The translations under genes and the position numbers were made by a program. Below are positions 18,714 through 50,036 of a stretch of 50,036 nt of DNA, piece after piece (positions within the stretch are counted from its first letter, which is position 1; the number at the start of each line of letters is the position of its first letter). Origin of the DNA: Candidatus Omnitrophota bacterium. GTDB lineage: Bacteria > Omnitrophota > Gorgyraeia > Tantalellales > Tantalellaceae. The stretch is from positions 1-50,036 of the forward strand of contig JADGBR010000022.1 of NCBI GenBank assembly GCA_015231405.1, read 5' to 3'. The notes beneath the pieces are model-generated. The model searched no databases, had not been told where the DNA came from, and saw nothing but the letters and a program-made list of their open reading frames with translations.

Positions 18714-18714
18714 A

Positions 18715-20124
18715 TTACGCCCCTATCATGGACACCGCGTCCTGCAGCATCTTCTTTAAAGGTTCGGGCATCCAAAGCCCGAGCACGATCATTATACAAG
18801 CGGAAACAGCAATAGCCGCGTTCATCATGAAATTCTCTTTTCTGGCGAGGATAGGCTCCGTGGGTTCGCCGTAAACCATCTCAAGGACGACCTTTCCTAA
18901 ACCGGTAAAAATAAGCGCTAAACAGATGATAGCGATAACGAACAGGATATACCGGCCCGACATGATCGCGGAATTAAGGATCATAAGCTCGCTATGGAAC
19001 GTCGCGAAAGGGAACATCCCTGTCCCGCCGAAGAGCGCGAAGAGGAGAAATATCCCCGTGACGGGATAGGCCCGGATGACGCCTCTTACATCCCCGACGC
19101 GCGACGAGCCGTATTTCTGAGCTATCGATCCCGCCGTTAAGAACATCACGACTTTCGAAAGGGCGTTATTGATCATATGGAATAAAGAGCCGAATATGCC
19201 CGCGCTCCCCAGGCTAAGCCCCAAGACAAGGATCCCCATATGCTCGACCGAAGAATACGCGAACAACCTCTTAACGTTCCTTTCGCCCAGCATAAATACC
19301 GCCGGCACGATAAGCGACAGGACGGCGGTCACTACCAGGATGGACGAGTAAAACTCGTAAAGTCCCGTCTTAAAACAGATCTGGCTTACGCGTACGAGCG
19401 CCAGGAACGCGCACTGCGTTAAAGCCCCGGCCATTATCACGACCACCATTCCCGTCGCCTGTCCGTACGCTTCCGGCTTCCAGCTATGCGTTGGCGCGAG
19501 ACCCATTTTGCAGCCGTATCCGACGACGAGGAATATGACGGAGAGCTTCAGCCAGTTTATGGTCATGCTCCCTTGCCCGGCGAGCAGCTCCGGAAGAAGC
19601 AGAGTATGCGAATCATGAGCGGCGATAGCGAGAAAGAACGTGCCCAGGAGCGCGAGCGCTATCCCCACGGAACATACCAGGAGATATTTCCAGGTCGCCT
19701 CAAGGCTCTGCTTATTACGGTGAAAACTGATGAGCGGCGCGCTGAATAACGTCGTCGTCTCTATCGCGACCCACATTAGCCCCATATGGTAACTTACGGA
19801 GACCAGGGTCATCGTGGACAAGAGGAACAATAAACATGCCACGAGCGTACGGCCGTCCCTTTTTTCATTGTCGAAATATCCGATCATGTAAGCCGAAACG
19901 CTTAAGAACAGGAAGCTTATCACGGAAAGGAAGATGAGCCCTATGGGATCCAGCGTTAGATACGCGCTGAATTCCGGAGGCGGGAGCTCCCTCCAAAATG
20001 ACCCGGCGATAACGGCATGGATAGATGAGACACCGAAAAGGAGCCAGAGCCTGGATTTCTTCCCGATGGGGAGAAAAACGAGAAACGCGCATAAAAAAGG
20101 CATAAGTATCAGGAATATCAGCAT
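18715..20124 (-). CDS. hyfF: Antiporter-like membrane subunit (HyfF/NuoM-N type)
   Basis: This 469-residue polytopic protein has about 13-14 helices and belongs to the proton-conducting antiporter family of complex I and hydrogenase 4. It carries the HyfF signature ETTTLFSAPLISFHRN with LEATWKYLLVCSVGIALALLGTFF, the broken-helix segment GLAPTHSWKPEAYGQATG, and NNALSKVVMFLTAGSI with its conserved Lys. The Glu of ETTTL and the buried Lys expected for ion transfer are present, whereas the usual mid-channel Lys position reads Gln (GALTQCAFLALVR), as in several HyfF-like proteins. Its ATG overlaps the stop of hyfE by one base (TAATG), so the two are translationally coupled. Confidence 0.92.
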   Translation of the reverse strand: MLIFLILMPFLCAFLVFLPIGKKSRLWLLFGVSSIHAVIAGSFWRELPPPEFSAYLTLDPIGLIFLSVISFLFLSVSAYMIGYFDNEKRDGRTLVACLLFLLSTMTLVSVSYHMGLMWVAIETTTLFSAPLISFHRNKQSLEATWKYLLVCSVGIALALLGTFFLAIAAHDSHTLLLPELLAGQGSMTINWLKLSVIFLVVGYGCKMGLAPTHSWKPEAYGQATGMVVVIMAGALTQCAFLALVRVSQICFKTGLYEFYSSILVVTAVLSLIVPAVFMLGERNVKRLFAYSSVEHMGILVLGLSLGSAGIFGSLFHMINNALSKVVMFLTAGSIAQKYGSSRVGDVRGVIRAYPVTGIFLLFALFGGTGMFPFATFHSELMILNSAIMSGRYILFVIAIICLALIFTGLGKVVLEMVYGEPTEPILARKENFMMNAAIAVSACIMIVLGLWMPEPLKKMLQDAVSMIGA

Positions 20125-20777
20125 TATGGGCTCTCTCCCATCTTGGAGTAACTCGATGCGGCCGGGGCGCTCTCGAACTCCTCGTTGATATGGTTGATCA
20201 CAATGGCCATGATAAAGACGGCGACGAATATATCCAGAAGGATCCCCATTTCGATAAGCAGCGGCATCGCGTCAAAGAGCGACAGAGCGAAAAGGAATAT
20301 CCCGTTCTCCATGACGAGGTATCCGAGGACCTGGGTCACCGCCCTGTAGCGGGTGACCATGATCATGAAACCCATAAGGACGGTAGCGAGCGAACAGGGG
20401 ATAATAAGATCGGATACCTGAGTTCCCGGGAGCTTGAGAGACGACGCGACCCAGAAAGCGCCGGCGATCAACAGAGTGCCGCCCATAATGGACGCGCCTA
20501 ATCCGATGATAGACTTCGTCTCCGCGCGCATTGATACATGCCTGATAGCCCATGTCAGGATATAAGGCACGAGGACCGCCTTTAACGCCAGCGTCCCGAC
20601 GAACAACGTCGCGTCCCGGACCGACAAGGCGTCGGCGTGCATGAATAGGGGTGTAAGGCTCAAAACAAAAGACTGAAGCGCGAATACCCGTATCATTCCG
20701 ACGGTACGATATGTCGATATGATCGCCAGAGAAAAGAACACGATCAGTATACAACTCGCATCAAGCCAGATAGCCAT
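20124..20777 (-). CDS. hyfE: Membrane subunit HyfE-like (NuoK-like)
   Basis: This 217-residue membrane protein has about seven helices and corresponds to HyfE of hydrogenase 4, whose core is related to NuoK and MrpC. Supporting segments are VLGYLVMENGIFLFALSLF (with the membrane Glu in the NuoK-like helix) and the Asp-rich LLIEMGILLDIFVAVFIMAIVINHINEEF. Position between the NuoH-like and HyfF-like genes matches the order in hyf operons. It lies 3 nt after the stop of the NuoH-like gene and overlaps hyfF by one base. Confidence 0.88.
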   Translation of the reverse strand: MAIWLDASCILIVFFSLAIISTYRTVGMIRVFALQSFVLSLTPLFMHADALSVRDATLFVGTLALKAVLVPYILTWAIRHVSMRAETKSIIGLGASIMGGTLLIAGAFWVASSLKLPGTQVSDLIIPCSLATVLMGFMIMVTRYRAVTQVLGYLVMENGIFLFALSLFDAMPLLIEMGILLDIFVAVFIMAIVINHINEEFESAPAASSYSKMGESP

Positions 20778-20780
20778 ACG

Positions 20781-21707
20781 CTACTTCCTCCATAACGACA
20801 CGATAAACCCGAAGAACGCCAACCCGAAAGATATCAAAAGAAGATATTTGACCCGGTCGAGGCGCAAACGCGCCATACACGATTCGACTACGCCTATAAG
20901 TATCGAGACGAACATCATTCCGGCCAGATATATACCTATGCCCACCGCGCGGTCGCCGGCCGCTCCGGGCACGATCATCTGCACAACTATCGCTGAAAAT
21001 ACGAAGAGCTTGGCGGTCTGCGCGACGAGAAGATACGCCAGATCAATTCCGCTATGGTCCAGGACCATGACTTCATGTATCATGGTAAGTTCGAGATGCG
21101 TATCGGGATCATCGACCGGTATCCGGCAGTTCTCCGCCAGGAGCAAAATGAAAAAACTTGAGACCACAAGTATCAGCGCCGGGGTGAGCGTCCCGCCGGA
21201 TAACGGCATCTCCTCGCCGATCATACGCGACAAAGAGATGTTGCCGGAGCATGAAGCGAGCGCGATAAAATTCATGAAGAGCGCCAGTTCCGAAAAACAC
21301 GAGAAGAACGCCTCGCGGCTGGCGCCTAAGCCTTCCATGCTCGAACCAGTATCCATAGCCGCCGCTATCATAAAAAACCTCGCCAGAGCCAGGAGGTACG
21401 CCGCCAAAAGGATATCGCCCGGGAACCCGAGAGGCGCCCGGATCTCGCCGAAAGGTACGGTCAATGAGAAGGCCATGACCGCCGCTAACACGACCACGGG
21501 AGAGGCGCGAAATACCCATGTCGTCGTACGGCTGTATACGCATTTCTTCCGGAACAATTTCACGATGTCGAAGTACGGCTGGACGAGCGGCGGCCCCACC
21601 CTTCCGGCAAAAACCGCCTTGACCCTGGCGGTCACGCCGAAAAAGAACGGCGAGAGCGCCATCACTATGGCTAAATGAGCGAATACCGGGAGTATCCCGT
21701 TCATCAC
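20781..21707 (-). CDS. hyfC: Membrane anchor subunit (HyfC/HycD, NuoH-like)
   Basis: This 308-residue membrane subunit has about eight helices and anchors the peripheral arm; it is homologous to NuoH. Conserved blocks are GVTARVKAVFAGRVGPPLVQPYFDI (loop 1 region, GRVGPP being diagnostic), ELALFMNFIALAS, and ELTMIHEVMVLDHSGIDLAYL with acidic residues of the half-channel. It starts 1 nt after the HyfB-like stop, so the operon is tightly packed. A separate HyfD antiporter, present in E. coli hyf between C and E, is missing here. Confidence 0.92.
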   Translation of the reverse strand: MMNGILPVFAHLAIVMALSPFFFGVTARVKAVFAGRVGPPLVQPYFDIVKLFRKKCVYSRTTTWVFRASPVVVLAAVMAFSLTVPFGEIRAPLGFPGDILLAAYLLALARFFMIAAAMDTGSSMEGLGASREAFFSCFSELALFMNFIALASCSGNISLSRMIGEEMPLSGGTLTPALILVVSSFFILLLAENCRIPVDDPDTHLELTMIHEVMVLDHSGIDLAYLLVAQTAKLFVFSAIVVQMIVPGAAGDRAVGIGIYLAGMMFVSILIGVVESCMARLRLDRVKYLLLISFGLAFFGFIVSLWRK

Positions 21708-21708
21708 G

Positions 21709-23532
21709 CTACCTCATTTTCCAGGCTATTAAAAATATCAGGAACGCGAATATGTACACCAGATACATCTGAGTGTAACGGATACGCTTCAAGTCGAACA
21801 TCCTCGATAGACCGCATAGCCGGTCAAAGAGAGGTTTGAACATCTTTTCTTCAGACGCGTCATGCACCGACGAAGAGAGATGTGATCTCCCCGGCAGTTC
21901 TCCCGATACCCGTCCTCCGTGACGGCGGAATAGCAGTGCCTCCCGCGCGACCTCGACGATAGACCTGGCAAAAGAAGAAGAAGTGTACTGGAATCTGGGC
22001 GACATTTGCGAGAACGCGCATCTCCAGGTATCACGTACCGGCATCGGTTCGGACCCGAGGATAAACCTGCGTAGGAACTGAAGCGCCAAGATCGCGGCAA
22101 GCGTCAGGATAGCGGCCCCTGATACCATAGACAAGGACCTGAATATCGTACCAAGGCCTTGGAGAGAGATATCACCATGCGCCAAATACCTGCCTCCAAT
22201 AAATGTTAAATTAGCCATGAACTTAGGGGCCAGCCCTATCCAGACACAAAGGGCCGCGAGAAATATCATAGGGAAGAGCATCCATTTGGACGTCTTTCCC
22301 CCTATCTCAACCCCGTCCGCGCGCGAGCTGCCTGAAAATACCGTCCCGTACACCTTGGTAAAACACGCCAGGGCCAAAGCGCCCATGAGCGCGAGCGCCA
22401 GTATAGCTAAAGCACAGATGACCGCGTTCGAAAGGGACAGGGTAAGAAGCCCGCGGAAAAGTCCGGAAAAAATAATGAATTCGCTTATAAACCCGTTGAA
22501 TATCGGCATACCCGTGATCGATAAAGCCCCCACCATGAATAACCCGCTTACAAGAGGCATTTTCTTCGCTATTCCGCCCATCTCATCCATGACGCCTGTA
22601 TTAGTATTCTGGATCACGGCGCCGCCCGCAAAAAACAGTAGCCCTTTGAAAAAAGCGTGGTTGAGCACATGTAAAAGCGCTCCGCCGAACCCGAGAGCGG
22701 CCAGGAACGGATCGCGATGGCTCACGCCCAACAAACCGATACCAAGCCCGAGAGCGATGATCCCGATATTTTCTATACTGTGATACGCTAAAAGTTTTTT
22801 CAGCTCATGCTGCCCGATGGCGTATAGCACCCCGAAGATGCCCGAGACGCATCCGATAGCCATGAGAATGTAAGCGCACCAATCCGGAAGCGCGCCGACC
22901 ATCCAAAAAACACGGCAAATACCGTAGATCCCTGTTTTTATCGTCACTCCCGAGAGAAGCGCCGAAATGTGCGATGGCGCCGCCGGGTGAGCTTCAGGCA
23001 GCCAGATGTGCAGAGGGATAAAGCCCGATTTCACCCCAAAACCAATAAGAGATAAAATAAACACCGTCGCCGCTATCGCCGGCGGGAACGGCGTCCGGGC
23101 GATCACGTCAAAATTCATGGACCCGGCAGTATGCGCCAAGAGGAAGAACATCAGGAACAGGCAAAATGTCCCGCAATGGGCCATGACGAGATACAGGAAC
23201 CCGGCCTTTCGTATGGAAGGTTTTTCATCGTTAAAGATGATCAGGAAATATGTGGAGATCGACAACACTTCCCAGGCCGAGAGGAACAGGATCACGTTAT
23301 TCGCGGTTATGATAGTCAAGAGGTCCGCTACGAGAAGCGCGAAGAAGAATGAGTGGGCCCATAAAGGCTTACGTCCTGCGTACCGGCGCATGTATCCCAC
23401 ACCGTAGATCCCGGCTGAAACGGCGAGGACAGCGATAGCGACGAGGAATATCAGGCTAAGCGGATCAAGCCTCAGCGACAACTCGCCGAACGGGGTCTTC
23501 CATGGCAAACTGATCACCTTCTCCATCCTCAC
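21709..23532 (-). CDS. hyfB: Antiporter-like membrane subunit (HyfB/NuoL type)
   Basis: This 607-residue antiporter-like subunit has the key residues for ion translocation: Glu in FLSAWEVLSISTYFLI, Lys in SALLSGVTIKTGIYGICRVFW, His and Lys in LKKLLAYHSIENIG and Lys in HAFFKGLLFFAGG. A soluble stretch (about 490-580) separates the last two helices and ends in a final membrane segment (QMYLVYIFAFLIFLIAWKM). The start is GTG at 23530-23532, overlapping the TGA of the upstream EIIA gene by 4 nt (GTGA), or the ATG two codons later. With the other subunits it should couple electron transfer to H+ or Na+ movement. Confidence 0.92.
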   Translation of the reverse strand: MRMEKVISLPWKTPFGELSLRLDPLSLIFLVAIAVLAVSAGIYGVGYMRRYAGRKPLWAHSFFFALLVADLLTIITANNVILFLSAWEVLSISTYFLIIFNDEKPSIRKAGFLYLVMAHCGTFCLFLMFFLLAHTAGSMNFDVIARTPFPPAIAATVFILSLIGFGVKSGFIPLHIWLPEAHPAAPSHISALLSGVTIKTGIYGICRVFWMVGALPDWCAYILMAIGCVSGIFGVLYAIGQHELKKLLAYHSIENIGIIALGLGIGLLGVSHRDPFLAALGFGGALLHVLNHAFFKGLLFFAGGAVIQNTNTGVMDEMGGIAKKMPLVSGLFMVGALSITGMPIFNGFISEFIIFSGLFRGLLTLSLSNAVICALAILALALMGALALACFTKVYGTVFSGSSRADGVEIGGKTSKWMLFPMIFLAALCVWIGLAPKFMANLTFIGGRYLAHGDISLQGLGTIFRSLSMVSGAAILTLAAILALQFLRRFILGSEPMPVRDTWRCAFSQMSPRFQYTSSSFARSIVEVAREALLFRRHGGRVSGELPGRSHLSSSVHDASEEKMFKPLFDRLCGLSRMFDLKRIRYTQMYLVYIFAFLIFLIAWKMR

Positions 23533-27885: not shown

Positions 27886-30800
27886 TCACTTCTTCAAAGT
27901 ATCTACCAGGTCGCTGAGGGTATTATCCAGCGTATTCACCGTAAAGAGTTCGGTGTTCGTCTCCTCGGCTTTTTTCTTGGATTCGAGTTCGTCCAAAATG
28001 GACTTCATCGTACTGTCCCGGTTCGGGTCAGGCTCGGCGGCGGCCTGGCCTCTCGCCGGATATTGACCGCCGAAAGAACCGCCGGCGCCTAAAATTGCCC
28101 CTGTATAGTAATTTTTCTTTACTCTCGACAAGATAGTGGGATCAGTCGGATCGGAGGGATCCGCGTACTCGTATTCATAGTAGTAGCTATCGCCGGATAT
28201 CCCTTCATCGTTCCAGTCGGCACCGATGATAACGGCGTCGTTCGTCCCGGCTGAATCGCCCGCCGTAAAACCGCTGCCTTCACCAAGCTTCCATTCGGAC
28301 ACAAGTCCGTCCTTAAGCGCGACCCCGTTATAAAGGTTCACCATATCGGCATGGTCAAGGGCGGTATTATATACCGAAACGTCCTTCATCTTCCCGTTAA
28401 GCGTTTCGCTCGGATAATTCCTGGCTCCCAGGAGAAGATCTCCCGCGAAGTTCATAGCGTCCAGGCTCATGTCATTCGAGCGGACAAGCGAACCGTTAAG
28501 ATAGATAGAAATGGTGGTCCCATCATAAGTTATGCCTATGTTGTACCATGTATCCTTCGTGAACGGTAACGCCGCGGTCTTAAATCCCACATAGTTACCC
28601 GAGCCGTCCGTTCCGGAAAAATACAGCTTGTCATCGTTCGTTTTGAATAACTCGAACATCCTGGACGAATCCGACGCTCTTTTAACGAATATCGGCTGCC
28701 ATGCCGCCATGCCTGCTTCCGAGAAATTGACCCAGCCCGAAACCGTCAATGTCTGGAGCTCGAGCGTCGCCGCTGACCCGCAATTAACGGCGTCGCCTTT
28801 TTCGCTGAACGAAAGCGAGTAGTCGTATGTCAGAACATCGACCCTTTCAACCCTTCCCTTCCCGGAGCCGTCATCCTCATTGAGGTAATAATACTTCACG
28901 TGCCGGTCCTTGAATTCACCGAACGCAGTCTCTTTCACGACCTCACGGGTCTCGAGCCTATTATCCGCGTCGGTATAATATTCCTCTATTTCGATAACTA
29001 TTTCGGTATTGCTATTTTTCATTGTCCTTTTCGATACTGTGCGATCGGCCGGATCAGCTGGACTAGCGTACTCGTACTCATAGAACCAGCTGTCTTTGGC
29101 GAAGCCCGTCGTAGACCAATCCGGACCGTCTACCACCCCGTCATTACCACCGACGCTGTCGATAACTTTACCGCCGGAGCCGTCATTCATCTGCCAATGA
29201 GAGACAAGTCCGTCCGTCACGTCGATATCGTTCAATAAACTCACCGCTTCGGTATTACTGATGACCCTGTTAAAAACGCTGACGTCCTTTATCTTTCCCG
29301 AAAGGCTCATGTTCCCGGCCGCCCTATACCCCAGGAACATATCCGCGTCGAAATCAAGGCCTATCGAATCAAAGCTCCCCTCAAAGACCATGACCCCGTC
29401 GATATACACCTTCAATATCGATCCGTCAGTGGTCAAAGCGATGTCATACCATTTGTTCGCATCCAGGAACGCGGTCGATGTCACCTTGGTGTAAACGTAC
29501 CCGCCGGGACCGGTAGCCATTATGTAGAGCTGGTCCTTATCGTTCTTGAAGATATCTAACGCTTTCCCGTCCGTACCCCTTTTTGTAAGAATGGGCTGCC
29601 ATGTCCCGAGAGCGCTTACGTCAAAATTGACCTTCATGTCGACGCTGAACGCACCCAGTTTTAAGCCCTCGGGGTTACCTATATTGATCTTATCCCCCGA
29701 CTCCGAGAAAACAAGCACCCCTTCCGGTTTAATTAACTCGGCCTTGGAAAGCCTGCCCGCTCCGCCCGCTGAATTCTCGTCCGAGTAATAGTACTTGAAG
29801 TGCCCGCCATAAAACTCGCCGGGATCGGATTCTTCATACACTTCGCGTATCATGAGCCTGTTATCCTGATTATCATAATAGTACTCCGCCTCGAACAACT
29901 TATCGCCTAAAGTATACTTTTTCTGCTTCGCGGATATCCTCTTATCGTCAGGATCGCCGGGAGTTAAGTACTCATATTCACAATACCAGCTCTTATCGGA
30001 TGAGCCGGCGTTGGACCATACCGGGCCTGAAATAATACCTTCGTTATCTCCGGCGCTGTCAATAGCTATGCCGCCGGACCCTTCGTCAAGCTTCCACTCC
30101 GACACTATCCCTGGAACACCGTTGGAGCCGTTCTTGACTTCTATGATCTCCGAAGCAGAAAGAGCCCTGTTGTATACCCTGACGTCCCTCTGAGCGCCTT
30201 CCAAAGAGTTAGCAGCGGAACCATCCCTGCATCCGAGTACCACATCCGCGTCAAAATCCAATCCCAGGCCCGTAAAGGCTTGGGTGAAAACCATGCTCCC
30301 GTCAATATACGCGTTCAACGCGCTGCCATCGAACGTAACGACTATGTTGTACCATCTTTCCGCCGTATCGAGACCCGCCTCGGATTGAACGCCGTAAACG
30401 TAAGTTGTACCGTCATACCCTGTAAAATAGAGCTTATTGGCCGGGGATCTCCATATCTCGAACGTTTTTCCCGAAGCCGATTTTTTGATGAATACAGGCT
30501 GCCAGGAGTTCATGGCGGCCTCGTCGAATTTAACCCAGACGCTTACCGTCCCTTTATTGAGATCAAGGCTCGGATCGGAACCGCAGTTGATATTGTCGCC
30601 TGCGCCGTTAAACCTCATTTCCCAACTATCAAGAGCGACCTCCACCTTAAGAAGCCTGCCGTCAAGCCCCTCACCTGTCTCTTTCAGATAGTATTTTGTT
30701 ATCCCGGTAGTCCTAGGGTCTATTTCCCCCAGGTCGGGATCGGTGGTCCCGGGCAGAAATATCTCCTTTGTCCTGATCCCTCCGGTCGTGTAGTAATGCG

Positions 30801-33450
30801 AAACGCTTACAACAGGCCATTTCCCGATATTTTCCAGCCCGGGATCCTGCCCGTTACGATATACGGCGGAAAAAACCTTCTCATCCGCCCCGTCATCGTT
30901 ATGGTCATACGACATGGTCATTTCCATCTGGCCGTCGACGGGCGTATCCCAAAGATAGGTATATACCGTATCCATCATATCGTTCGTGTCGTACCTGGCG
31001 TCTATCCTCCCGTCATCGTCTTCATCTTCCAACCGGCTCGATAGCGGCGGGAATTCCGGAACGATGTTATTGTCAGAACACCATTCCCCCCAGTCGCCGA
31101 GTTCGGGAAGTATTAGGCTAGACGGGTCCGCGACCGGGCCTATAAGCGTCCAGCCGTCCAAAAGCTCCGGAACGCTATGGGTATTTGGTATGAATGTGTA
31201 AGCCGTCCACTCTCCGCCCGCCGTTCTCTTAATGACAACATTGTCTTTCCCTTCATAAACGTTTTCGCCCCATAGGAACCAGTAAGTGCTGTTATCCCCG
31301 GGAATATCGTATAATTTAGTGAACTTTACCCCGTCCGTTCCGTTGGGTAGAGGAATAGCCTCACCTTTAACGCCGTTATCAAAAACTCCGCTGTAACCGG
31401 TGCTACGACCCGTCAACGGGTCCATGAAACTATACGCCAGCACATTGCCGTAAGACGAAGGGAAGGAAAAATCACTTGGGGTACCGTATTGGATCAGGAC
31501 ATCCCCTGAGTTAAGGCCGAAAGCGTAACAATACATCCCGGTCGAGAGGCCGTCTTTGATCTTTGTGTTCTTATAGTCTCTCCCGGATTCCCATGCGCCG
31601 TACCAGATACCGCTGTAATATATTCCCAGGGCGCTTCTCTCGACCGATACCCTTTGCCCTTCCGAATTAAAAGTGACAGCGTAGTCGTCCAGATCAGAAT
31701 CAGACCCGTCATACTGATCGCCATGTATGGTCACCGAGCCATCCGCGTTCACGATTAGGTATCCTCCGGCATCCTGATGCCCGGAATCGTATGTCTCACT
31801 CCAGAACGAAGTGAGATCGGGAGCTATCTTAACGACATACAAGTCCCTGAGCGTGTAATCACCCGCGGGATAAGTCGTACCCGTCACAAAAACATTATTC
31901 GAGGTATCCACTCCAATGGATGACACCGTCTCATAATTCCCCAGATCAAGCCGGTATGACACACCTGCCTCAACGCCCGAAGCGCTATACTTGTGAACGA
32001 CAAGGTCCGTGTTACCGACGTTCCAGGATTCAGCCGCGACATAAACATTATCCGCCCCGTCGACCGCCACTACCGTGTTAAAAGCGGAGGTCGTGTTCAC
32101 CGCGAATTCCTTTTTCCATAAAACGTCGCCGGAAGACGAGTATTTGACGACATGAGCCTTCAGCCCGTTTTCCTGGCTCATGACCAGGGTCGTTACTATT
32201 TTGTTCCCTTCGGAATCGACCGCGACCCTCGGGTTCTTTATGAACCCTTCGGTGTAAAAGGTCTCTTCCACTCGCCCGCCCGGGACCGGAACACCGCCCT
32301 CCCAGAGAGACTGACTCAATTTTTTTACTTGGAGAGTGTCGCCCTCGTATTCACATTCCCGAAAGGAAACGGTCCCGTCGTTGTTCTTGTTCTCATATTT
32401 CAGGAGCCTGCCCTGGCCGTGGTTGTGGTTGGGGTCTCCCTCCACGTAGTAGTCATAGTAATCCGCGTCCTCGAACGTATACCTTGTATAACTCGCGCCA
32501 TTATTCCATTCGCAATAATACGCTTTAAGGTTCCCTGTCTCGGGGTAATACTCATACCGGCTCTGCAGCCCGCCGTTCGACATATAATTCGCGACGGAAA
32601 TAAACGCTCCGTTCGAATTGTACTCCTCGACCAGCTGAGGCGTTTCCGTGTTCCCCCAGTAGCCTTTCACCAGCAAGTAACTCCCGTCCGCGCGCTGTTC
32701 CCTGGAAACGCGACCATATCCCCTCGAGTTGAAATTCTCGTCCCTGTACTCGTAGTAGACATACCCTTTCTGGTCGGCAGCGCTTAACAGCTCAGCTTTC
32801 TTACGGCCTGAGGCGAAATGCGTCACGCCGTCCCTGATAACCCTCGTTTCAAGTCCGTTATCTCTGGCCCTTACCATCCCAAAATTCTCGACGAACCACA
32901 TCTCGGTGACGAAAGTGCTTACGCTCTCGTCATTAAGATCGGTATTTGTCATTGTCCTCGTTATCTTCATAGCTCTAAAAGTCCTGCCGACAAGCGTAAT
33001 ATTCTCAAAACCGGTTATGGTCATGACGCATTCATTGCTCATGTTCATACCGGGGCTTACGCCCACGGCGGTCGAAGTATAGCTCGCTCCAATTGTCATC
33101 GTTCTCGGTATCGCTTTGAGAGGAGGGTTGAACATGTAATCGCCCCAGGTATCTTTCAACCCGTAAACCGTGAACCATGAAGCATCTATGGTATAATAAT
33201 TCTCATCGAGGCTCGGCGAATCCACGAAACGGACCGCTTCGTAGGTTCCGCTTGGCACCGTTATCGTCCGCTTGCCGTTCACCGTCTCGGTCTGGATACC
33301 GCTCTGTTCGTAATACGCGCGTGTATCGGTGTTAACTATCGGGAAATAATCGGCGATATCATATGTGGCATCCGCATAAGCTTCGATAGCATAAAACACC
33401 GACGACATGAACACACTAAAAATAAGTACTGATAACAATTTCCTGCCCAT
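27886..33450 (-). CDS. Large secreted protein with three LamG-like modules
   Basis: This 1854-residue protein has a signal peptide (about 1-28) and N-terminal beta-rich regions with tyrosine-rich strands (Y.YEY.DE.FNSRGYGR). A middle stretch resembles a beta-propeller (VAVDGADNVYVAAESW, GVDTSNNVFVTGTTY). From about 940 on come three tandem units of roughly 300 residues. Each has an EYEYxxPxDPxD lead-in, a KYYY linker and a LamG/concanavalin-like domain (GDNINCGSDPSLDL, GDKINIGNPEGLKL, GDAVNCGSAATLEL; then W..I..T.DG....YIDG). LamG folds bind carbohydrate or protein ligands, so it may be an adhesin or sheath protein. There is no membrane anchor or sortase motif; the C-terminus is charged and helical. 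The ATG follows GGGGGGAAAAA. Confidence 0.88.
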   Translation of the reverse strand: MGRKLLSVLIFSVFMSSVFYAIEAYADATYDIADYFPIVNTDTRAYYEQSGIQTETVNGKRTITVPSGTYEAVRFVDSPSLDENYYTIDASWFTVYGLKDTWGDYMFNPPLKAIPRTMTIGASYTSTAVGVSPGMNMSNECVMTITGFENITLVGRTFRAMKITRTMTNTDLNDESVSTFVTEMWFVENFGMVRARDNGLETRVIRDGVTHFASGRKKAELLSAADQKGYVYYEYRDENFNSRGYGRVSREQRADGSYLLVKGYWGNTETPQLVEEYNSNGAFISVANYMSNGGLQSRYEYYPETGNLKAYYCEWNNGASYTRYTFEDADYYDYYVEGDPNHNHGQGRLLKYENKNNDGTVSFRECEYEGDTLQVKKLSQSLWEGGVPVPGGRVEETFYTEGFIKNPRVAVDSEGNKIVTTLVMSQENGLKAHVVKYSSSGDVLWKKEFAVNTTSAFNTVVAVDGADNVYVAAESWNVGNTDLVVHKYSASGVEAGVSYRLDLGNYETVSSIGVDTSNNVFVTGTTYPAGDYTLRDLYVVKIAPDLTSFWSETYDSGHQDAGGYLIVNADGSVTIHGDQYDGSDSDLDDYAVTFNSEGQRVSVERSALGIYYSGIWYGAWESGRDYKNTKIKDGLSTGMYCYAFGLNSGDVLIQYGTPSDFSFPSSYGNVLAYSFMDPLTGRSTGYSGVFDNGVKGEAIPLPNGTDGVKFTKLYDIPGDNSTYWFLWGENVYEGKDNVVIKRTAGGEWTAYTFIPNTHSVPELLDGWTLIGPVADPSSLILPELGDWGEWCSDNNIVPEFPPLSSRLEDEDDDGRIDARYDTNDMMDTVYTYLWDTPVDGQMEMTMSYDHNDDGADEKVFSAVYRNGQDPGLENIGKWPVVSVSHYYTTGGIRTKEIFLPGTTDPDLGEIDPRTTGITKYYLKETGEGLDGRLLKVEVALDSWEMRFNGAGDNINCGSDPSLDLNKGTVSVWVKFDEAAMNSWQPVFIKKSASGKTFEIWRSPANKLYFTGYDGTTYVYGVQSEAGLDTAERWYNIVVTFDGSALNAYIDGSMVFTQAFTGLGLDFDADVVLGCRDGSAANSLEGAQRDVRVYNRALSASEIIEVKNGSNGVPGIVSEWKLDEGSGGIAIDSAGDNEGIISGPVWSNAGSSDKSWYCEYEYLTPGDPDDKRISAKQKKYTLGDKLFEAEYYYDNQDNRLMIREVYEESDPGEFYGGHFKYYYSDENSAGGAGRLSKAELIKPEGVLVFSESGDKINIGNPEGLKLGAFSVDMKVNFDVSALGTWQPILTKRGTDGKALDIFKNDKDQLYIMATGPGGYVYTKVTSTAFLDANKWYDIALTTDGSILKVYIDGVMVFEGSFDSIGLDFDADMFLGYRAAGNMSLSGKIKDVSVFNRVISNTEAVSLLNDIDVTDGLVSHWQMNDGSGGKVIDSVGGNDGVVDGPDWSTTGFAKDSWFYEYEYASPADPADRTVSKRTMKNSNTEIVIEIEEYYTDADNRLETREVVKETAFGEFKDRHVKYYYLNEDDGSGKGRVERVDVLTYDYSLSFSEKGDAVNCGSAATLELQTLTVSGWVNFSEAGMAAWQPIFVKRASDSSRMFELFKTNDDKLYFSGTDGSGNYVGFKTAALPFTKDTWYNIGITYDGTTISIYLNGSLVRSNDMSLDAMNFAGDLLLGARNYPSETLNGKMKDVSVYNTALDHADMVNLYNGVALKDGLVSEWKLGEGSGFTAGDSAGTNDAVIIGADWNDEGISGDSYYYEYEYADPSDPTDPTILSRVKKNYYTGAILGAGGSFGGQYPARGQAAAEPDPNRDSTMKSILDELESKKKAEETNTELFTVNTLDNTLSDLVDTLKK

Positions 33451-42859: not shown

Positions 42860-45800
42860 CTACGCGGCTACAAGGTATTCTTTCAGGCGGGAGTAACGCT
42901 TGATGAGTTCCTGTTTGGAGTATTTTTCGGCTCCCGGAAGGAGCTTGAAAACGAGGTTCGTGCCGATTTTCTCTATCTCCTCTACCATAAGATCGTTAAG
43001 CGTGATGCCGAGTTGCCTGAGGTTCTCGTAGACGCCGTCCAGGCCGAAAAGATGTTCAGCGAGGGCGAGCGTAACTACTTCCGCGAGCGGGCAGTAATCG
43101 CCGGACTCAAGCCTGGATAGATCCAGGTAATACATATTCGCCTTCCCGTTCTTCTCAACCCCCCGGAGCGTCTCCTTATTTTTGAGGTCGGCGAAGATCA
43201 GTATATCGGCGTTATCTTCGGAAAAATATCCCTGTATCCTGTTATGTATGCCCGCGGCGTTCTTTTCGATTATTTCGATATTATCGAGAAGTTTGGCGTA
43301 TACCTCGTCTTTCTTGAGAGACTTCAGGCGCCTCATGATAGTTAATGGCGCCGCTTCCTGGTTGGAACCTATCTCCGTATCGAAGACGAGGACCAGCTTA
43401 CGGCCGGAAACGGCTCTTGAAAGCAAAAGGTCGCCCATGGTCTTCATTAGCTCGTTCTCTTTTCGTATGTCACGGAGAAAATCCGTCCGAAGCGCGTCTT
43501 TGGTAGCCGTCATAGCGGCACCCACCGTTCTTCCCGACGCTTTGACGACGTACTCCCCAGAAGCGCCGGTGGAGGCGCCGTCCGAAACCCCGACAGGCGT
43601 TCTATCGTCTCCGGAATGCCCCTTACCGTTTCGGAAGCACTCCTCCAAGACCACTTTCGCGTTCCTCCGTATCCTCGCCGCTTCTTTTTTCATCGCTCCG
43701 AACGACGCTTTACCGAGATATTTTTGTACCATTTTCTCTATTTCACCGAGAACTACATCCTCCGGCTTCCTGTCCTTAAGACCGCGCCGCTCGATGAAAT
43801 CCCTTGTCAATACGCCCCTCATGGCCTCTATTTTACTTGAAAGGAACCGGTCCGAGCCGTGGGAGGCGAATTTATCCAGATATCCCAGATTTTCCCTTCC
43901 CGCTTTCTCTCGGACTTTGTCTAGATATCCGAGATACAACCGCCGCGTCTCATAGTCCCTGAGATGCGCGGCGAATATCTGTTTAAGATACCTTAAAGCT
44001 CCGAATTTTAGCCTCTTGTCCAAAACCGTTATTTTTTCTTCGGCTAGCCCGGGAGTATCGGCGTAGACCTCGGTTAAAGTGTCTTTCATCATCCTCACGG
44101 CTCCGGGCCGCGTCAACTCTTCCCATTTCTGAAGATATTTCTCCTTCCAATCTTTGAATAGCTCTATCCTGGCTCTCAACCTTTCCTTATAGGTCGGTCC
44201 TTCCCCTTCCCTGTAATCGTCAAGCAGGGATAGCAGTGTTATCTCGCCTATCCCCTGTTTCACATCCTCCCTGGCCCAGTCATAGTTGAGGAACCAGCCG
44301 TCCGGCCTCGTGTTATCCTCGTCAAGAAATTCGGCTACGTCAAACCCCGTCATGTCCTTGAGGACCAGCCCGTTCCTCACCGATATCCTCGTATTCGAAT
44401 ACTTCCTGTCGTTCCTCCCGACAAGGTCCCCAAAAGCCGCGACATAAGCCAGATTATCGATAATGTCCCGCATAAGCCTTTCCTCGCCGAGAATATGTTT
44501 CCCGTACGCGATGAGGTCAGCTCCTGTCACGTCGCCGATCTTTTCAAGAGTAGAGGCCCTTTCGCGAAGCATATCCGCCCTCGACCGCGAGGCGGTCTCC
44601 GGAGGAACGCTTAAAAACCCGTTCTTATCCCTCGCGCCGAACAGGAGGTCCCTTCCACTCTGGCCGTGATAATCGCTCTCGTTGAGGCGCACGACCGGAA
44701 AAGTCCCGTAGAACGGGTTTGACCGGTCAAGTTGGATGAGCATGCCCCGGAGCTCGTCGATATCCTCTTCGCTCATCCCGCTCCCGAACATCCCTATGGC
44801 CTGGAAACCCGGTCTCCTCAGACCGTCGACCTCTACCGTCGCGTATCTTTCAAAAAGGCTCCTTATCTTCCTCACTCTGGTCGGCACCACTTTCGCGTGC
44901 CTGAGAGGATGCGGCAGGGAAGTCACCCCGCCCATGCGAGCGGAAAGGGTTAATATCTCCTCAATATCCATACTGCTTCTTCCGCCGGGGACAATGTGAT
45001 CGCGTGCCTCGTCTATGTATTGAACCTTGATCTCCTCCTGCGTAGCCGCTCCCAGAGCCGTTTCGCCGTATTTCTTAAGCAATATCCCGGAGAGCGTCCA
45101 GAACGTCATCATCTTCTGGGGCACGGACAGGATGTCCTCTTCCGTAAGGACAAACCCGTGTTCCTTATGGATCTCGTTGAATTTTTTTACGACCGCGCGG
45201 ACATTCGCCTCCCTATTCCCCGCCACTTTGAGCATTTCCCTGTAATCTCCGTTCTTTCCTATTTTTTCCATAAATGGCTTCACATCATCAGCTGTCTTAA
45301 CCAGCGGAAAATAAACTATAACGTGAAGATTTATCAAATTCTCCTTCTTATCCCCGGTATAGAACTCGATCCCGGGTATCACTTCGATATCTCCGAGTAT
45401 TGCCGCCGCGTCCATGGCTTCGGGTATACCGCCAAGCGAGATGTGGTCCGTTATCGCTATGGCGTTCATCCCGTTAAGCCACGCTTTGAACACGAGCGAC
45501 TCGGGCGTATTGTCGCCGTCGGAGTATATCGTATGGGCATGGAGGTCGGCCTTCCCTTTCAGCCGTTCGCTTCTAATGATAAATCTTTCGTTATCCTTGA
45601 GAACCCTGAGCGCTTCCAGCCTCTCTTCCCCCGGGAGCCTCGCGTCCTGAATATCCGAGAACGCTCTGTAAACCTGATGCGCGCTCCGTATCCCCGCCTC
45701 CGTAAGCTCCGGCTCTTCCGTCAAAGACGGTTCTTTCTCCCTGGCCGCGTCATAACCCGATACGGCCATAAGCTCTTTCAGGCTGAGGTCCAGGGATCTT

Positions 45801-48800
45801 TCTCCTATTACCGGAGTTATCAGGATCCCGGGATATTTATCATCCGGATTGGGATAATACAACGACTCGGACCCCGGCATCGAGACGGGTACCATAGCGG
45901 CCTGGAATCTCGAGAAAGCGACGTCGTTCCTGAGATCCCCGTGCCCTTTATGCTGCCTTTTAAGGAAAAGCTCCACCGTCCCCGCGTCATTTCCGGAGTT
46001 ATCATTGACCCGGAAAACGGCTTTATAAACCCCTGTGCCTATACTGGTATCTGTTATGTCGGATATCCGCGGCCCATCTTCCTTTAATCGCAGGCCTTTG
46101 CCCGCGAGATACAGTTCGATACCGTTATCCCAGCCCAAAAGCCCGATATTCTCCTCGAACACTTTCAGAATGATTTTTTTAACACGCTCCGGAGCCTCAT
46201 TTATAAAGTCCCTGTGCTTATTGATAACTTCCATGGGAACATGAGGGTTATTACCGCTCGAATTGTTACTGTTAAAATAGATACTCCTTATCACATTGCG
46301 GGAGAAAAAACCCTTATCCATATCGAATAATTCGGCTAAAAGTTCCCGGGCAGATATGTCGACCCTTGTTTTCAGATGGCCCTCAACAGCCTTCCTGAAC
46401 GCCGGGACGGATTCTTTGTAATACGAGACGAGCTCGCGCGCCTCGAGCCATTCCCCGTCAAGGCCTTCGCATTGAGACAGGTCGATTTCCTTGAGCGCCA
46501 GTATCTTTATCTTGCCGGAAAAAGATATGTCATTCAGCCCGCGAAGCATATCCGGAGCGAGGTCGCCGGCCGTGACGGTCCTTTCGTCGCCGCCTTTCCC
46601 TATAACCGTCAGTTTCTTCGGTCTTATTCTGACCACTTTGAGCGAATGCCAGTATTTAAAACCGTCCTTCGGAGCCTTATCGTCGACGATGAGCCCCCTT
46701 TCGGCGAGCCAGTCCATCCACCTCGCGTCCATGCGTTCGATCTTTAAAGGGACCTTGAAACCCTCGCTTAAGACCTCAACATCGACCATTTGGCCGTATG
46801 CCCTGAGATAATTATCCATATCCTCCTGGGCGAGCTCGCTGTAATTCATTATTATCCCGGCGTCGGGATTGTCGGGATTAAGTTTGCTCATCCCATCTCT
46901 CACCATCTCCCTCATGAGCCCGGTGCCTTTGAACGGGTCGTCCAAAGCGCCGGCGGGGCCGTTCTCCCACGGCGGCGTCGGAAGGTACGGCGGGTTCAGA
47001 ACGATAAGATCGGCTTTGGCCTCTATCTTCGATACCCCTTTGCCGAGAAAGGTCCTGACCTTGACGCCCAGAGATTCGCAAAGAGGTGCGGTATTACGTT
47101 TCGCCGCCATCAGCGAATAAAGGCTGACATCCGTCATGATAAGTTCTTTAAGCCCCGGCAGTTTCGCCGCGCAAGCCGCCGAAACATGCCCCCCGCCGAC
47201 GCCCACTTCCATGACGGTCTTAATATCTCCCCTATTAAGGATGCCTTTCTCCTCGAGCGTCTTATGCAGAAAGACCGTATCAATATTGGTTGACCATGTG
47301 TCCAGATCGACCCTGGCGTCGTTGTTGGTCACGACGCCCCTGTATTCCGTATATTTGCCGCCGCGCGCGAAAAGCGTGAGTATCCTGGAAAGCGTTATGC
47401 CGGAAAAATGTTTCGCCACATAATTGTCGGGGAACATAAGATGGAAACTCGGGAACGAGGCTATAAGTTCCTTCCTGAGCCTGGAATAGTCCGGGGCGAG
47501 GCCAGGCGTGTATACGCCGTCGTCACCCGTGACCTTATAGAGCGTCACCGTCTCGAGATCATCGCTCATATGCACGTACAGCTCCAGGTTCCGCTCTATC
47601 GGCTGGACGGGGAGGTTATCGATCTCGGCAAGGTCTCCCCGATCCTTGATCATTTCGCCGTATACGGCAAGAGTTTTGGCGGTATCAACCACTCCCGGGT
47701 ACCCTTTCGCCAGGATACCCCTTATCTTTTTCATCGGATCGGACTCTTCCCTCGCAAGGCTTACGATATCGTATTCACTCACGTCCCTCAATTTTCGCGA
47801 CGTATACGCGTCAAGCAGGTCACGGATCTTGGATACCTCCCCCGCAAGGACCGAGTTCTCATCACCGATAAGCCCCTGTTTAATGGACCGTTCCACTTCT
47901 AGAACAAGGTCCAACCTCCTCGCCCTGAACTCATTTATCGTCTTATAGAGGGTTTCGGCGTCGTCTACGCTACCCACCAGCGCGTCCAGAAAATCTATTT
48001 CCATTTTGTTGTATCCTATGAAGAACCTCTTAAGTTCGTCCTTTTCGCCGGCCTCATCCGGTCGGTCGTTGAGCATGGCTGTCCTATACATGTATTTGAT
48101 GACGTAGAAAACCGACCCGATCTCGCGGGCGTAGGTGTTTATGATATCCGCTATCCTCCCCACCGCCGAGTCTTCGTACCCGCATTCGAAAGTGTGGACG
48201 GTATTTCGCCTCCGGCCCAAAAGCCCTTTTGAAAGGGTGATATTGTAATAATCGGTATTAGCCTGCACCTTGAGCTGGTTAAGAGGGAATGATACTTCCA
48301 GATAAAGGTCGTTCTTCCTTATGAACCGCACGTTCTCCCTCAGGTCTTCGAGGTTGGCAAGCGGGTCCAGCGGGATGAACCCGATACAGACATTGAAACC
48401 GAGTCCCCTGAGGACGCGTATAGCGCCTTCGTTCTCCTCGACCTTTATCCCCTTGACGTAATGCCTGAGCTGCCTGTCCGAGCCGGACTCAATGCCGAGG
48501 AAAAGGCTTTCGAACCCGGCGCGTTTTAAAAGCTCGAAAGTCTCCCGTTTTTCTTGTCTCAGCTCCTCGCTGTCGTTTTTCGCGAATACCGTATCGGCCC
48601 TTAACGAAACGGCTATCCTGAGCTTTATCCCTCTTTCTATCATGCCTTCGGCTATCCGTCTGGCTCTCCGGAGCCCGTTCAGGGTCTCTTTACCGCCGCC
48701 AAAGAATTCGGGGTCGGTGAACGACACATGCTTCGCGCCGTTTTCCTGGAGATATTTAAGCCCCTCAAAAATGACCTCGTCCGGGAAAGGCTCCCATTTA

Positions 48801-50036
48801 TGGGCCCTGTAAGGGTCCTTAAAACAGAACGCGCATTTGCCCCAGCCGCATCCACGGCTCGTCTCCATCCATATGTCCCCGCCGCGCCGCAGTATCTCCT
48901 GAAGCTCATCGCGCGAAGGGAGCCCTAGGTCGGCGACGCTGACCGGGACCCCGTCGTTCTCCACTATCTTGCCGTCGATAACGAAAGATGCGGCCGGTAC
49001 ATCGTAGGGAGATATCTCGCCCCGCTGGAACCTGACAAGCTCACGAAGCGCCATCTCACCTTCACCGCGCACGGTGACCAGATTGGGATACTTTAGAAGT
49101 ATCGACCTGTTCTCATTCGTCGGAAGGTTGCTTCCCATTACCGTCATCATTTTCCTTGTCTTATATTCATCCTGGTCCTTGAGAATATCCAGGAACTCGT
49201 ACAGCAATTTATCTGATTCGAGCTGAGCCGAGAGACCGAGGATATCCGGGGATTGCTTCCTCACCTCGTCCATGAGCTCCACCGCTTTCATCCCGAACTG
49301 GGTATCGACCATGGATATTATGACGTCTTCCCCGTATTTTCTCCGGAGATCACCCATGAGGGCGTTTATTCCGGCCGGCTCGGTGATGACCTGATGCCTG
49401 GGAGAAGTGAAATTGACCATCACTATTTTGACAGGCTCCCGCGTTATTACCTTCACCTCGTCTTTCCTGGGTTTCGCCTTGTACAGGCCGAGCCCCTTTA
49501 TTATCCTGAGCGCCCTCGGCGTTATAAGGGTGTTCTCGGGAGTGTTCTCGCGTATCCTTCTCCTCACTTCCGTCGAAGAGTCGAACCGGTTCTCCCTCGG
49601 AAGGATAAAAGTGTCCACATACCTCGATATATATTCCGGGAGATCGTTCTCTATAAGGACCCTCGTGATATCCTTTTTCGAGGCATATCCCCTCGGGACT
49701 ACCGATATCCTGGAATAAGTGAAAAACTCCTCTATGACGGGCTTCGGATTACCGGTCATCATTTGCTCAAAATTATCGAACCCCATTATGAACCTGTAAT
49801 CCGTCTTCCGGTGATACTTCCGGAGGACTTTCGCCATACCCGCGAATCTCGGGGTTTGAGTTATCACTATGGATACCTTCGGAAGGTCTTTGAGCTCTTC
49901 TTTAAGCATGAACAGCCTCTGGGCGAGAGTAGAGGCGAAATTCTCTTTAGAGACATGCCCGACGCTGACTACCACGACCACCTCGTCCAGGGTATCGTCT
50001 TTCGCGGCGTTCTCTATTATCCACCTGTGCGCCCTG
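42860..50036 (-). CDS. Giant multidomain protein: NadD-like + B12/radical SAM + methyltransferase + kinase-like + PHP (5' end missing)
   Basis: At least 2391 residues are visible; the frame stays open to the right edge, so the true start is outside. Domains (visible numbering): 1-185 NadD-like nucleotidyltransferase (RFIMGFDNFEQMM, SSTEVRRRI, GLGLYK); about 200-360 B12-binding-type domain; about 370-640 radical SAM with Cys396, Cys401, Cys404 (CX4CX2C) and a following helical part; about 930-1130 HemK-like methyltransferase (EVGVGGGHVSAA, NPPY at 1014-1017); about 1330-1450 kinase-like N-lobe (GTGVYKAVFRV, ELFLKRQ) without HRD or DFG; about 1495-1765 PHP phosphoesterase (DLHAHTIYSD at 1497, TDH, LPHPLRH, NESDYHG); then about 600 residues of unknown helical domain. 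It is cytoplasmic, with no signal or membrane segment. Function is unknown; domains point to tRNA, cofactor or nucleotide chemistry. Confidence 0.87.
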   Translation of the reverse strand, partial: RAHRWIIENAAKDDTLDEVVVVVSVGHVSKENFASTLAQRLFMLKEELKDLPKVSIVITQTPRFAGMAKVLRKYHRKTDYRFIMGFDNFEQMMTGNPKPVIEEFFTYSRISVVPRGYASKKDITRVLIENDLPEYISRYVDTFILPRENRFDSSTEVRRRIRENTPENTLITPRALRIIKGLGLYKAKPRKDEVKVITREPVKIVMVNFTSPRHQVITEPAGINALMGDLRRKYGEDVIISMVDTQFGMKAVELMDEVRKQSPDILGLSAQLESDKLLYEFLDILKDQDEYKTRKMMTVMGSNLPTNENRSILLKYPNLVTVRGEGEMALRELVRFQRGEISPYDVPAASFVIDGKIVENDGVPVSVADLGLPSRDELQEILRRGGDIWMETSRGCGWGKCAFCFKDPYRAHKWEPFPDEVIFEGLKYLQENGAKHVSFTDPEFFGGGKETLNGLRRARRIAEGMIERGIKLRIAVSLRADTVFAKNDSEELRQEKRETFELLKRAGFESLFLGIESGSDRQLRHYVKGIKVEENEGAIRVLRGLGFNVCIGFIPLDPLANLEDLRENVRFIRKNDLYLEVSFPLNQLKVQANTDYYNITLSKGLLGRRRNTVHTFECGYEDSAVGRIADIINTYAREIGSVFYVIKYMYRTAMLNDRPDEAGEKDELKRFFIGYNKMEIDFLDALVGSVDDAETLYKTINEFRARRLDLVLEVERSIKQGLIGDENSVLAGEVSKIRDLLDAYTSRKLRDVSEYDIVSLAREESDPMKKIRGILAKGYPGVVDTAKTLAVYGEMIKDRGDLAEIDNLPVQPIERNLELYVHMSDDLETVTLYKVTGDDGVYTPGLAPDYSRLRKELIASFPSFHLMFPDNYVAKHFSGITLSRILTLFARGGKYTEYRGVVTNNDARVDLDTWSTNIDTVFLHKTLEEKGILNRGDIKTVMEVGVGGGHVSAACAAKLPGLKELIMTDVSLYSLMAAKRNTAPLCESLGVKVRTFLGKGVSKIEAKADLIVLNPPYLPTPPWENGPAGALDDPFKGTGLMREMVRDGMSKLNPDNPDAGIIMNYSELAQEDMDNYLRAYGQMVDVEVLSEGFKVPLKIERMDARWMDWLAERGLIVDDKAPKDGFKYWHSLKVVRIRPKKLTVIGKGGDERTVTAGDLAPDMLRGLNDISFSGKIKILALKEIDLSQCEGLDGEWLEARELVSYYKESVPAFRKAVEGHLKTRVDISARELLAELFDMDKGFFSRNVIRSIYFNSNNSSGNNPHVPMEVINKHRDFINEAPERVKKIILKVFEENIGLLGWDNGIELYLAGKGLRLKEDGPRISDITDTSIGTGVYKAVFRVNDNSGNDAGTVELFLKRQHKGHGDLRNDVAFSRFQAAMVPVSMPGSESLYYPNPDDKYPGILITPVIGERSLDLSLKELMAVSGYDAAREKEPSLTEEPELTEAGIRSAHQVYRAFSDIQDARLPGEERLEALRVLKDNERFIIRSERLKGKADLHAHTIYSDGDNTPESLVFKAWLNGMNAIAITDHISLGGIPEAMDAAAILGDIEVIPGIEFYTGDKKENLINLHVIVYFPLVKTADDVKPFMEKIGKNGDYREMLKVAGNREANVRAVVKKFNEIHKEHGFVLTEEDILSVPQKMMTFWTLSGILLKKYGETALGAATQEEIKVQYIDEARDHIVPGGRSSMDIEEILTLSARMGGVTSLPHPLRHAKVVPTRVRKIRSLFERYATVEVDGLRRPGFQAIGMFGSGMSEEDIDELRGMLIQLDRSNPFYGTFPVVRLNESDYHGQSGRDLLFGARDKNGFLSVPPETASRSRADMLRERASTLEKIGDVTGADLIAYGKHILGEERLMRDIIDNLAYVAAFGDLVGRNDRKYSNTRISVRNGLVLKDMTGFDVAEFLDEDNTRPDGWFLNYDWAREDVKQGIGEITLLSLLDDYREGEGPTYKERLRARIELFKDWKEKYLQKWEELTRPGAVRMMKDTLTEVYADTPGLAEEKITVLDKRLKFGALRYLKQIFAAHLRDYETRRLYLGYLDKVREKAGRENLGYLDKFASHGSDRFLSSKIEAMRGVLTRDFIERRGLKDRKPEDVVLGEIEKMVQKYLGKASFGAMKKEAARIRRNAKVVLEECFRNGKGHSGDDRTPVGVSDGASTGASGEYVVKASGRTVGAAMTATKDALRTDFLRDIRKENELMKTMGDLLLSRAVSGRKLVLVFDTEIGSNQEAAPLTIMRRLKSLKKDEVYAKLLDNIEIIEKNAAGIHNRIQGYFSEDNADILIFADLKNKETLRGVEKNGKANMYYLDLSRLESGDYCPLAEVVTLALAEHLFGLDGVYENLRQLGITLNDLMVEEIEKIGTNLVFKLLPGAEKYSKQELIKRYSRLKEYLVAA

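Follow-up and report, generated by a model that had tools for sequence, protein, structure and literature searches.

Enzyme-packed giant proteins with signal-type N-termini in Omnitrophota: a giant with NadD-like and OxsB-like radical-SAM domains and its NAD-salvage partner

In the polyvalent proteins of phages and conjugative elements, which mobile elements encode and deliver along with DNA, numerous unrelated enzyme domains are strung together in shuffled order. The giant protein described here shares this build and differs from these in bearing a signal segment, in residing in cellular genomes and in ending with a C-terminal module for which no viral relative could be confirmed among 2.9 million viral contigs. 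The Preiss-Handler pathway of NAD salvage comprises PncA, PncB, NadD and NadE, which are normally separate soluble cytosolic proteins. All four enzyme types are present on two neighbouring giants of the locus, but here they are fused with unrelated enzymes in two signal-tagged chains. No description of fused NAD salvage enzymes was found in the literature searched, which covered few subscription papers.

Published accounts present the giant ORFs known from Omnitrophota as adhesin-like or as degraders of carbohydrates; transmembrane helices are often numerous in them and annotated domains few (PMC10066038). They are also the subject of a preprint by West-Roberts et al., in so far as it is represented in PMC12057145. 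As far as these accounts go, the present proteins resemble them in phylum, in being very long single ORFs and in the extracytoplasmic location proposed (PMC10066038, PMC12057145); they differ in that their cargo consists of cofactor and nucleotide enzymes with intact motifs, set between modules that recur at both termini. The literature searched (few subscription papers covered) contains no account of giants packed with enzymes and framed in this way, and the family is apparently undescribed, with a fair chance of being a kind of its own. OxsB, to which one domain of the giant is related, is a cobalamin-dependent radical-SAM enzyme of oxetanocin A biosynthesis that contracts the ring of a deoxyadenosine nucleotide (PMC13331322), and its partner OxsA is an HD-domain protein (PMC13331322, PMC7074753).

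The giant frame and its orthologue

The window, i.e. the whole stretch of 50,036 nucleotides analysed, corresponds to bases 1-50036 of contig C14 (56,467 bp) of the source genome, with a 61-N scaffold gap at its edge. The sequence-only reading had claimed a single long open frame, and this is borne out, the frame being N-free and uninterrupted over 2391 codons (Table 1); chance is rejected for a frame this long with several intact enzyme signatures. As the window stops at the scaffold gap, the frame is incomplete and its true N-terminus lies ~1.8 kb further. The upstream sequence, in which the true start was earlier proposed to be sought, contains a further N-terminal frame of 593 codons past the gap (P0001, C14:50098-51876), which represents the N-terminal ~590 residues of the window protein and begins with the signal-peptide-type sequence MTKEEHYGMRIIKINKTITIILLTAFLFENVVAADIPAR..TTLGVPSGF. 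The two frames are nominally different across the 61-N gap, the size of which is presumably estimated.

The orthologue of the window protein is an N-free ORF of 3512 aa in Candidatus Omnitrophus magneticus SKK-01 (contig JYNY01000401.1), a member of the same family as the source genome, whose single-cell assembly is independent of the source assembly. Residues 26-150 of the joined window protein align to residues 36-158 of the O. magneticus protein, residues 164-2035 to 1075-2958 with 48% identity (~1870 residues) and residues 2461-2986 to 2976-3495 with 31% identity. Since the O. magneticus ORF aligns on both sides of the gap, the two frames of the source genome represent one protein of about 3,000 aa. 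Both orthologues have in common the order HD-like domain, NadD, B12-radical-SAM, methyltransferase, kinase-like domain and C-module. The earlier claim of a single chain is thus upheld, and the same order, which the sequence-only reading had suggested looking for in other genomes, is present in O. magneticus and, among the 384 class genomes searched, exactly so in O. magneticus only. A chimera or frameshift is ruled out by this shared order together with the even GC3 across the domains (0.66 in the PHP insert and 0.57-0.68 in the neighbouring parts).

Behind its N-module the O. magneticus orthologue has an insert of L-aspartate oxidase, NadB (TIGR00551, 481 bits, cut-off 452.75), an enzyme found in that genome in the giant only. 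Neither this insert nor the PHP insert of the window protein is common to both orthologues, so that whole enzymes have been gained by or lost from a common scaffold. The O. magneticus contig also bears several near-identical AAA-ATPase-like genes of ~520 aa, in tandem, next to the giant and once more at the distal end of the contig (L033:1-4791, L057:5049-8221), which are either a repeat family or an assembly duplication.

Enzyme domains of the window protein

Table 1. Features of the window protein gene, in window coordinates
Feature	Position	Strand	Basis
Giant ORF, window protein	42860..50035	(-)	2391 codons, stop at 42860-42862
NadD-like nucleotidyltransferase	49466..50035	(-)	residues 1-190; TIGR00482 E 2.9e-9 and motifs
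Cobalamin-binding and radical-SAM module, OxsB-like	48086..49465	(-)	OxsB match; Pfam
Methyltransferase module	46601..47626	(-)	HemK2/N6AMT1 E 3e-8; MTS
Kinase-like domain, N-terminal half	45761..46315	(-)	SIGTGVYK, FLKRQH, DLRND; alignment with O. magneticus
PHP phosphoesterase, nested in kinase-like domain	44486..45760	(-)	PF02811 4.7e-13
Kinase-like domain, C-terminal half, and helical region	43484..44485	(-)	GDLVGRNDRKYSN, GFDVAEFLD
C-terminal module type A	42863..43483	(-)	ends ...LKEYLVAA; recurrent in Omnitrophota giants

All motifs named in the sequence-only reading for the NadD-like, radical-SAM, methyltransferase and PHP domains were located. The NadD-like domain matches TIGR00482 along its length, with a score of 37 bits (54 bits in O. 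magneticus) that lies under the cut-off of 112, and it has GFDNFEQM at 49760-49783 and SSTEVRRRI at 49553-49579. The HxGH motif falls partly within the N gap in the window protein, its last His being present, and reads QRSH in O. magneticus, where the first His is replaced by Gln. The HD-like domain matches nothing in the PDB and is recognised by eye only, as its HD motif reads MD.

The radical-SAM module bears the CX4CX2C motif (ETSRGCGWGKCAFC) at 48824-48865 (-) and matches Pfam Radical_SAM at 1e-13; its core is preceded by a B12-binding domain (Pfam 5e-6), which the earlier reading did not mention. Its closest solved relative is OxsB (PDB 5UL2; E 4.2e-47, profile 1.6e-54), the alignment being significant over ~340 residues (153-500 of the 744 of OxsB). 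The two share the succession of B12-binding and radical-SAM domains, the CX4CX2C motif (CDYSRCTFC here, CGWGKCAFC in OxsB) and an amide residue, Gln in the window module, which corresponds to the Asn186 that sits beneath the cobalt in OxsB (PMC13331322). They differ in that the outer domains of OxsB are not covered by the similarity, its N-terminal and C-terminal helical-bundle domains being without a significant sequence match in the window module. From the likeness to the nucleotide-acting OxsB, a nucleotide may reasonably be predicted as the substrate of the window module. The Cys triad is kept in all 12 of the 12 modules compared, as CX4CX2C in most and as CX3CX2C in three. OxsB-like modules were also seen in frames of 11,663 to 20,993 codons within one family of the class, f3 (G119:C1, G297:C14/C17, G100:C5).

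The methyltransferase module recurs in other giants with a conserved N-terminal extension of ~130 aa. Its motifs are intact, EVGVGGG at 47189-47209 and NPPY at 46985-46996, this NPPY and the glycine-rich SAM loop being of PrmC/HemK type; it matches Pfam MTS at 4e-7, and the release-factor methylase model TIGR03534 gives 40 bits, under the cut-off of 199. The putative kinase-like domain is recognised by motifs only (SIGTGVYK, FLKRQH and DLRND in its N-terminal half); no match was found among the PDB sequences, and the AlphaFold model is poor (pLDDT 41).

This domain is split by the PHP phosphoesterase, an insert of ~400 residues that follows the hinge-like LITPVIGERSLD and precedes the catalytic-loop-like GDLVGRNDRKYSN. 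The PHP domain scores 50 bits against a Pfam cut-off of 26.4, and its metal-ligand motifs are complete (DLHAHTIYSDG at 45515-45547, AITDH, GIEF, INLH, SLPH and SDYH). The alignment with O. magneticus reveals no PHP domain at the corresponding point of its kinase-like domain. The earlier proposal that PHP hydrolysis is a required step of the chain is therefore not borne out, the domain being an insertion that the orthologue does not have.

The partner giant and the wider family

Both genomes encode a second giant upstream in the same orientation, at a distance of 108 bp in the source genome and about 310 bp in O. magneticus; the 108-bp spacer of the source genome contains no minus-strand terminator. 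In O. magneticus the partner has 2201 codons and consists of a signal-type start, PncB, PncA, a second PncB, a NUDIX-like domain, glutamine-dependent NadE and a C-module. In the source genome it is divided between the ends of two contigs. The end of C40 holds the N-terminal half, with the start MKKLIAFITLILFSLNELSFGLG.., PncB, PncA and the beginning of the second PncB, and the end of C14 holds the remainder of the second PncB, an extra HAD-like insert (by eye), the NUDIX-like domain and NadE. As the halves of the partner terminate on each, these ends very probably adjoin.

NadE of the partner scores 713 bits in O. magneticus and 629 bits in the source genome (cut-off 479), and PncB 576 bits in O. 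magneticus (cut-off 469); the first PncB copy scores 315 and 323 bits (cut-off 297). PncA of O. magneticus is identified by a sub-cut-off match to NF008623 (108 bits, cut-off 174) together with its Asp, Lys and Cys motifs, and the NUDIX-like domain by motifs read by eye. The catalytic motifs of the partner are intact, as evident from the NadE triad and P-loop, the PncA Asp/Lys/Cys residues and the PncB GTMAH. Together the two giants carry PncA, PncB, NadD-like and NadE, with NadB in addition in O. magneticus, and the complete pair was found in two genera only. The NadE domains of the two partner giants form a clade (support 100/99) nested among the stand-alone NadE of the class, which points to one fusion followed by vertical descent.

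The source genome also has stand-alone copies of NadD (C15) and NadE (C7), so the giants as the only source of NAD enzymes are ruled out for these two. PncB was found in the source genome in the giant only; as genome completeness is about 96-97%, the absences of PncB and NadB elsewhere are suggestive rather than proof. O. magneticus has at least seven near-identical NadE copies (contigs C71, C263, C318, C359, C372, C471 and C510), which may be repeats or single-cell amplification chimeras.

The type A C-module of ~205 residues also terminates other long ORFs, with the strong matches lying exactly at the C-terminus, and closes dozens of giant ORFs in the class. It occurs in 17 of the 19 genomes of the family (eight matches in the source genome, and family frames of up to 7,588 aa), in 22 of 197 class genomes and in 15 of 193 phylum genomes, all but one in the class, these counts including weak matches that are perhaps not terminal. 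The module is not in Pfam and finds nothing credible among PDB sequences or PDB folds, and its assignment to a known domain was rejected. It is modelled as a confident alpha/beta domain (pLDDT 89.6), and its invariant residues (Ser, Phe, Tyr, Pro, Phe and Pro) have no catalytic pattern, which makes an active site unlikely; the module probably serves in sorting or assembly and not in catalysis. A second type of C-module, ending in F[WL]xYA or similar, is borne by the partner giant and four others.

At the other end, a signal-type N-terminus of basic segment and hydrophobic core is present in all 21 giants with a visible start, the start choice being automatic and four of them read by eye. In many of these giants [ST]WA-D or a similar sequence comes next, together with an LxVxSxF motif. 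The N-module GKR.EG.NW.IPC....Y.AVI occurs in 13 of 265 ORFs, nearly all giants, and the window giant has the signal-type start, an LxVxSxF-like motif and the N-module. The earlier reading had overlooked this export-type signal, as well as the modules shared at both termini and the existence of the partner giant. Between such ends other giants carry MoxR-type AAA with VWA, DeoC aldolase, HD, deoxyribosyltransferase, GNAT, sugar transferases, LOG, malic enzyme, CheR, guanylate kinase and other radical-SAM domains.

When residues 1-1150 of the window protein were searched against the class at E <= 1e-20, matches were obtained in 30 of 384 genomes, and 31 of the 32 matches lie in frames of >1,000 aa, the longest of 20,993. 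The statement that each family normally exists alone does not hold for this class, whose radical-SAM and methyltransferase modules of this kind are nearly confined to giant ORFs and vary in their order.

Several further long frames were noted. A third giant of 1383 aa (G000:C40:2826-6974), encoded on C40, the very probable neighbour of the window contig, has LOG/lysine-decarboxylase-type domains and a HAD-like stretch; its methyltransferase module shares 37% identity with that of the window protein. Another, from a different genome (L047:1966-8325), appears by eye to join arginase-like, 4-alpha-glucanotransferase-like and glycogen-debranching-like domains, which suggests that a single giant may gather the enzymes of one pathway. 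The DeMMO2_5 giant (L050:2860-10594) consists of two overlapping frames of 1668 and 937 aa, owing to a frameshift or a sequencing error. Within the window, a signal-bearing protein of 1854 aa with three LamG-like repeats, by eye, at 27886-33450 (-) is a candidate conventional giant adhesin, and a gene run at 17202-23532 (-) resembles, by eye, a membrane-bound (group 4) hydrogenase or complex-I-like cluster.

Joint function and placement of the chains

As the two chains together carry PncA, PncB, NadD-like and NadE, the pair may be interpreted as a tethered metabolon within one superfamily of signal-tagged giants, an interpretation to which we give an even chance. The plan of such a chain is an N-terminal signal-type segment, in many a short N-module, a cargo of cytosolic-type enzymes and a C-module of ~200 residues. 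The four salvage enzymes would produce NAD or an NAD-like nucleotide from nicotinamide, the OxsB-like radical-SAM, methyltransferase, kinase-like and PHP domains would then modify the product, and the N-terminal segment would set the chain at or beyond the inner membrane. The earlier suggestion that the chain performs nucleotide or cofactor chemistry is strengthened by PncA, PncB and NadE of the partner and by the OxsB-like module. The sub-cut-off score of the NadD-like domain and the Gln in place of its first His in O. magneticus count against the metabolon, as do the stand-alone NadD and NadE of the source genome, the PHP and NadB inserts present in one orthologue each and the finding of the complete pair in two genera only. 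The sequences themselves establish the domain layout, a pair conserved in both genomes, unbroken catalytic motifs and modules that recur; the joint function, the membrane or export location and the nucleotide substrate are what we infer from them.

A broader and more tentative reading, which we regard as falling short of probable, treats the giants as a class-wide set with interchangeable cargo, including complete NAD salvage and OxsB-like radical-SAM domains, that would be framed by a dedicated N-module and a C-terminal sorting module and delivered as single chains outside the ordinary cytoplasm, into a periplasmic or membrane compartment or another cell. The chains may thus be placed in an export compartment, in a tethered cytoplasmic metabolon or, after delivery, in another cell. 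Export is strained by the need for ATP, PRPP, SAM, cobalamin and an iron-sulfur cluster, which an exported protein could hardly use.

This demand would be removed if the N-terminus were an anchor only and the enzyme domains faced the cytoplasm, where the pair would channel NAD salvage with the stand-alone NadD and NadE as backup. All substrates and cofactors are cytoplasmic, the catalytic motifs are intact and the giant, as the sole place of PncB in the source genome, would fill a metabolic gap. However, the segments resemble cleaved Sec signals, as judged from the primary structure, in their basic n-region, their hydrophobic core and the small residues at -3/-1, and the positive-inside rule predicts a translocated C-terminus. 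NAD salvage, moreover, needs none of the radical-SAM, methyltransferase, PHP and kinase-like parts. A plain cytoplasmic metabolon of this kind is rather improbable.

Alternatively, the giants could leave the producing cell and work inside, or against, a neighbour, drawing on its nicotinamide or producing a nucleotide antimetabolite by means of the OxsB-like module. Many Omnitrophota are proposed to be predators or parasites, with giant ORFs thought to be surface weapons (PMC10066038, and PMC12057145 as far as its account extends), OxsB and AlsB make toxic nucleosides (PMC13331322), and cytosolic-type enzymes behind signal-type N-termini could function in a foreign cytoplasm. Nevertheless, no delivery system is tied to the gene, no toxin-like domain is present and the pathway makes NAD rather than destroying it, and O. 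magneticus is a large-celled magnetotactic organism of a class thought to be more often free-living (PMC10066038). Such an interaction factor is unlikely.

Still less probable, and given little weight here, is the possibility that the enzymes are inactive recruited folds serving as spacers or surface patterns. The NadD-like and PncA domains do score under their curated cut-offs, and the domain order is shuffled between giants, but NadE, PncB and NadB lie above curated equivalog cut-offs, the catalytic motifs are kept at ~50% identity between genera and the Cys triad is retained in every radical-SAM module compared. An assembly artefact or read-through of separate genes is hardly tenable, for although one scaffold gap cuts the window gene, another gap and a contig end cut the partner and the source assembly is a draft of 93 contigs, the order recurs in the independent, N-free O. 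magneticus assembly, GC3 is even across the domains and such ORFs occur throughout the class.

If the chains are exported, cofactor synthesis would proceed in a place from which it is not known; if they remain in the cytoplasm, the pair would rank with the most extreme pathway fusions that bacteria have evolved. In the NAD pair there is a defined product that could be assayed, and the OxsB-like modules add up to a large and so far unexplored collection of cobalamin radical-SAM enzymes. The conserved end modules serve as handles by which enzyme giants can be found, counted and expressed. Until now such genes in Omnitrophota have been interpreted as encoding adhesins or weapons that degrade cell walls; some of the giants described here are packed with intact metabolic enzymes.
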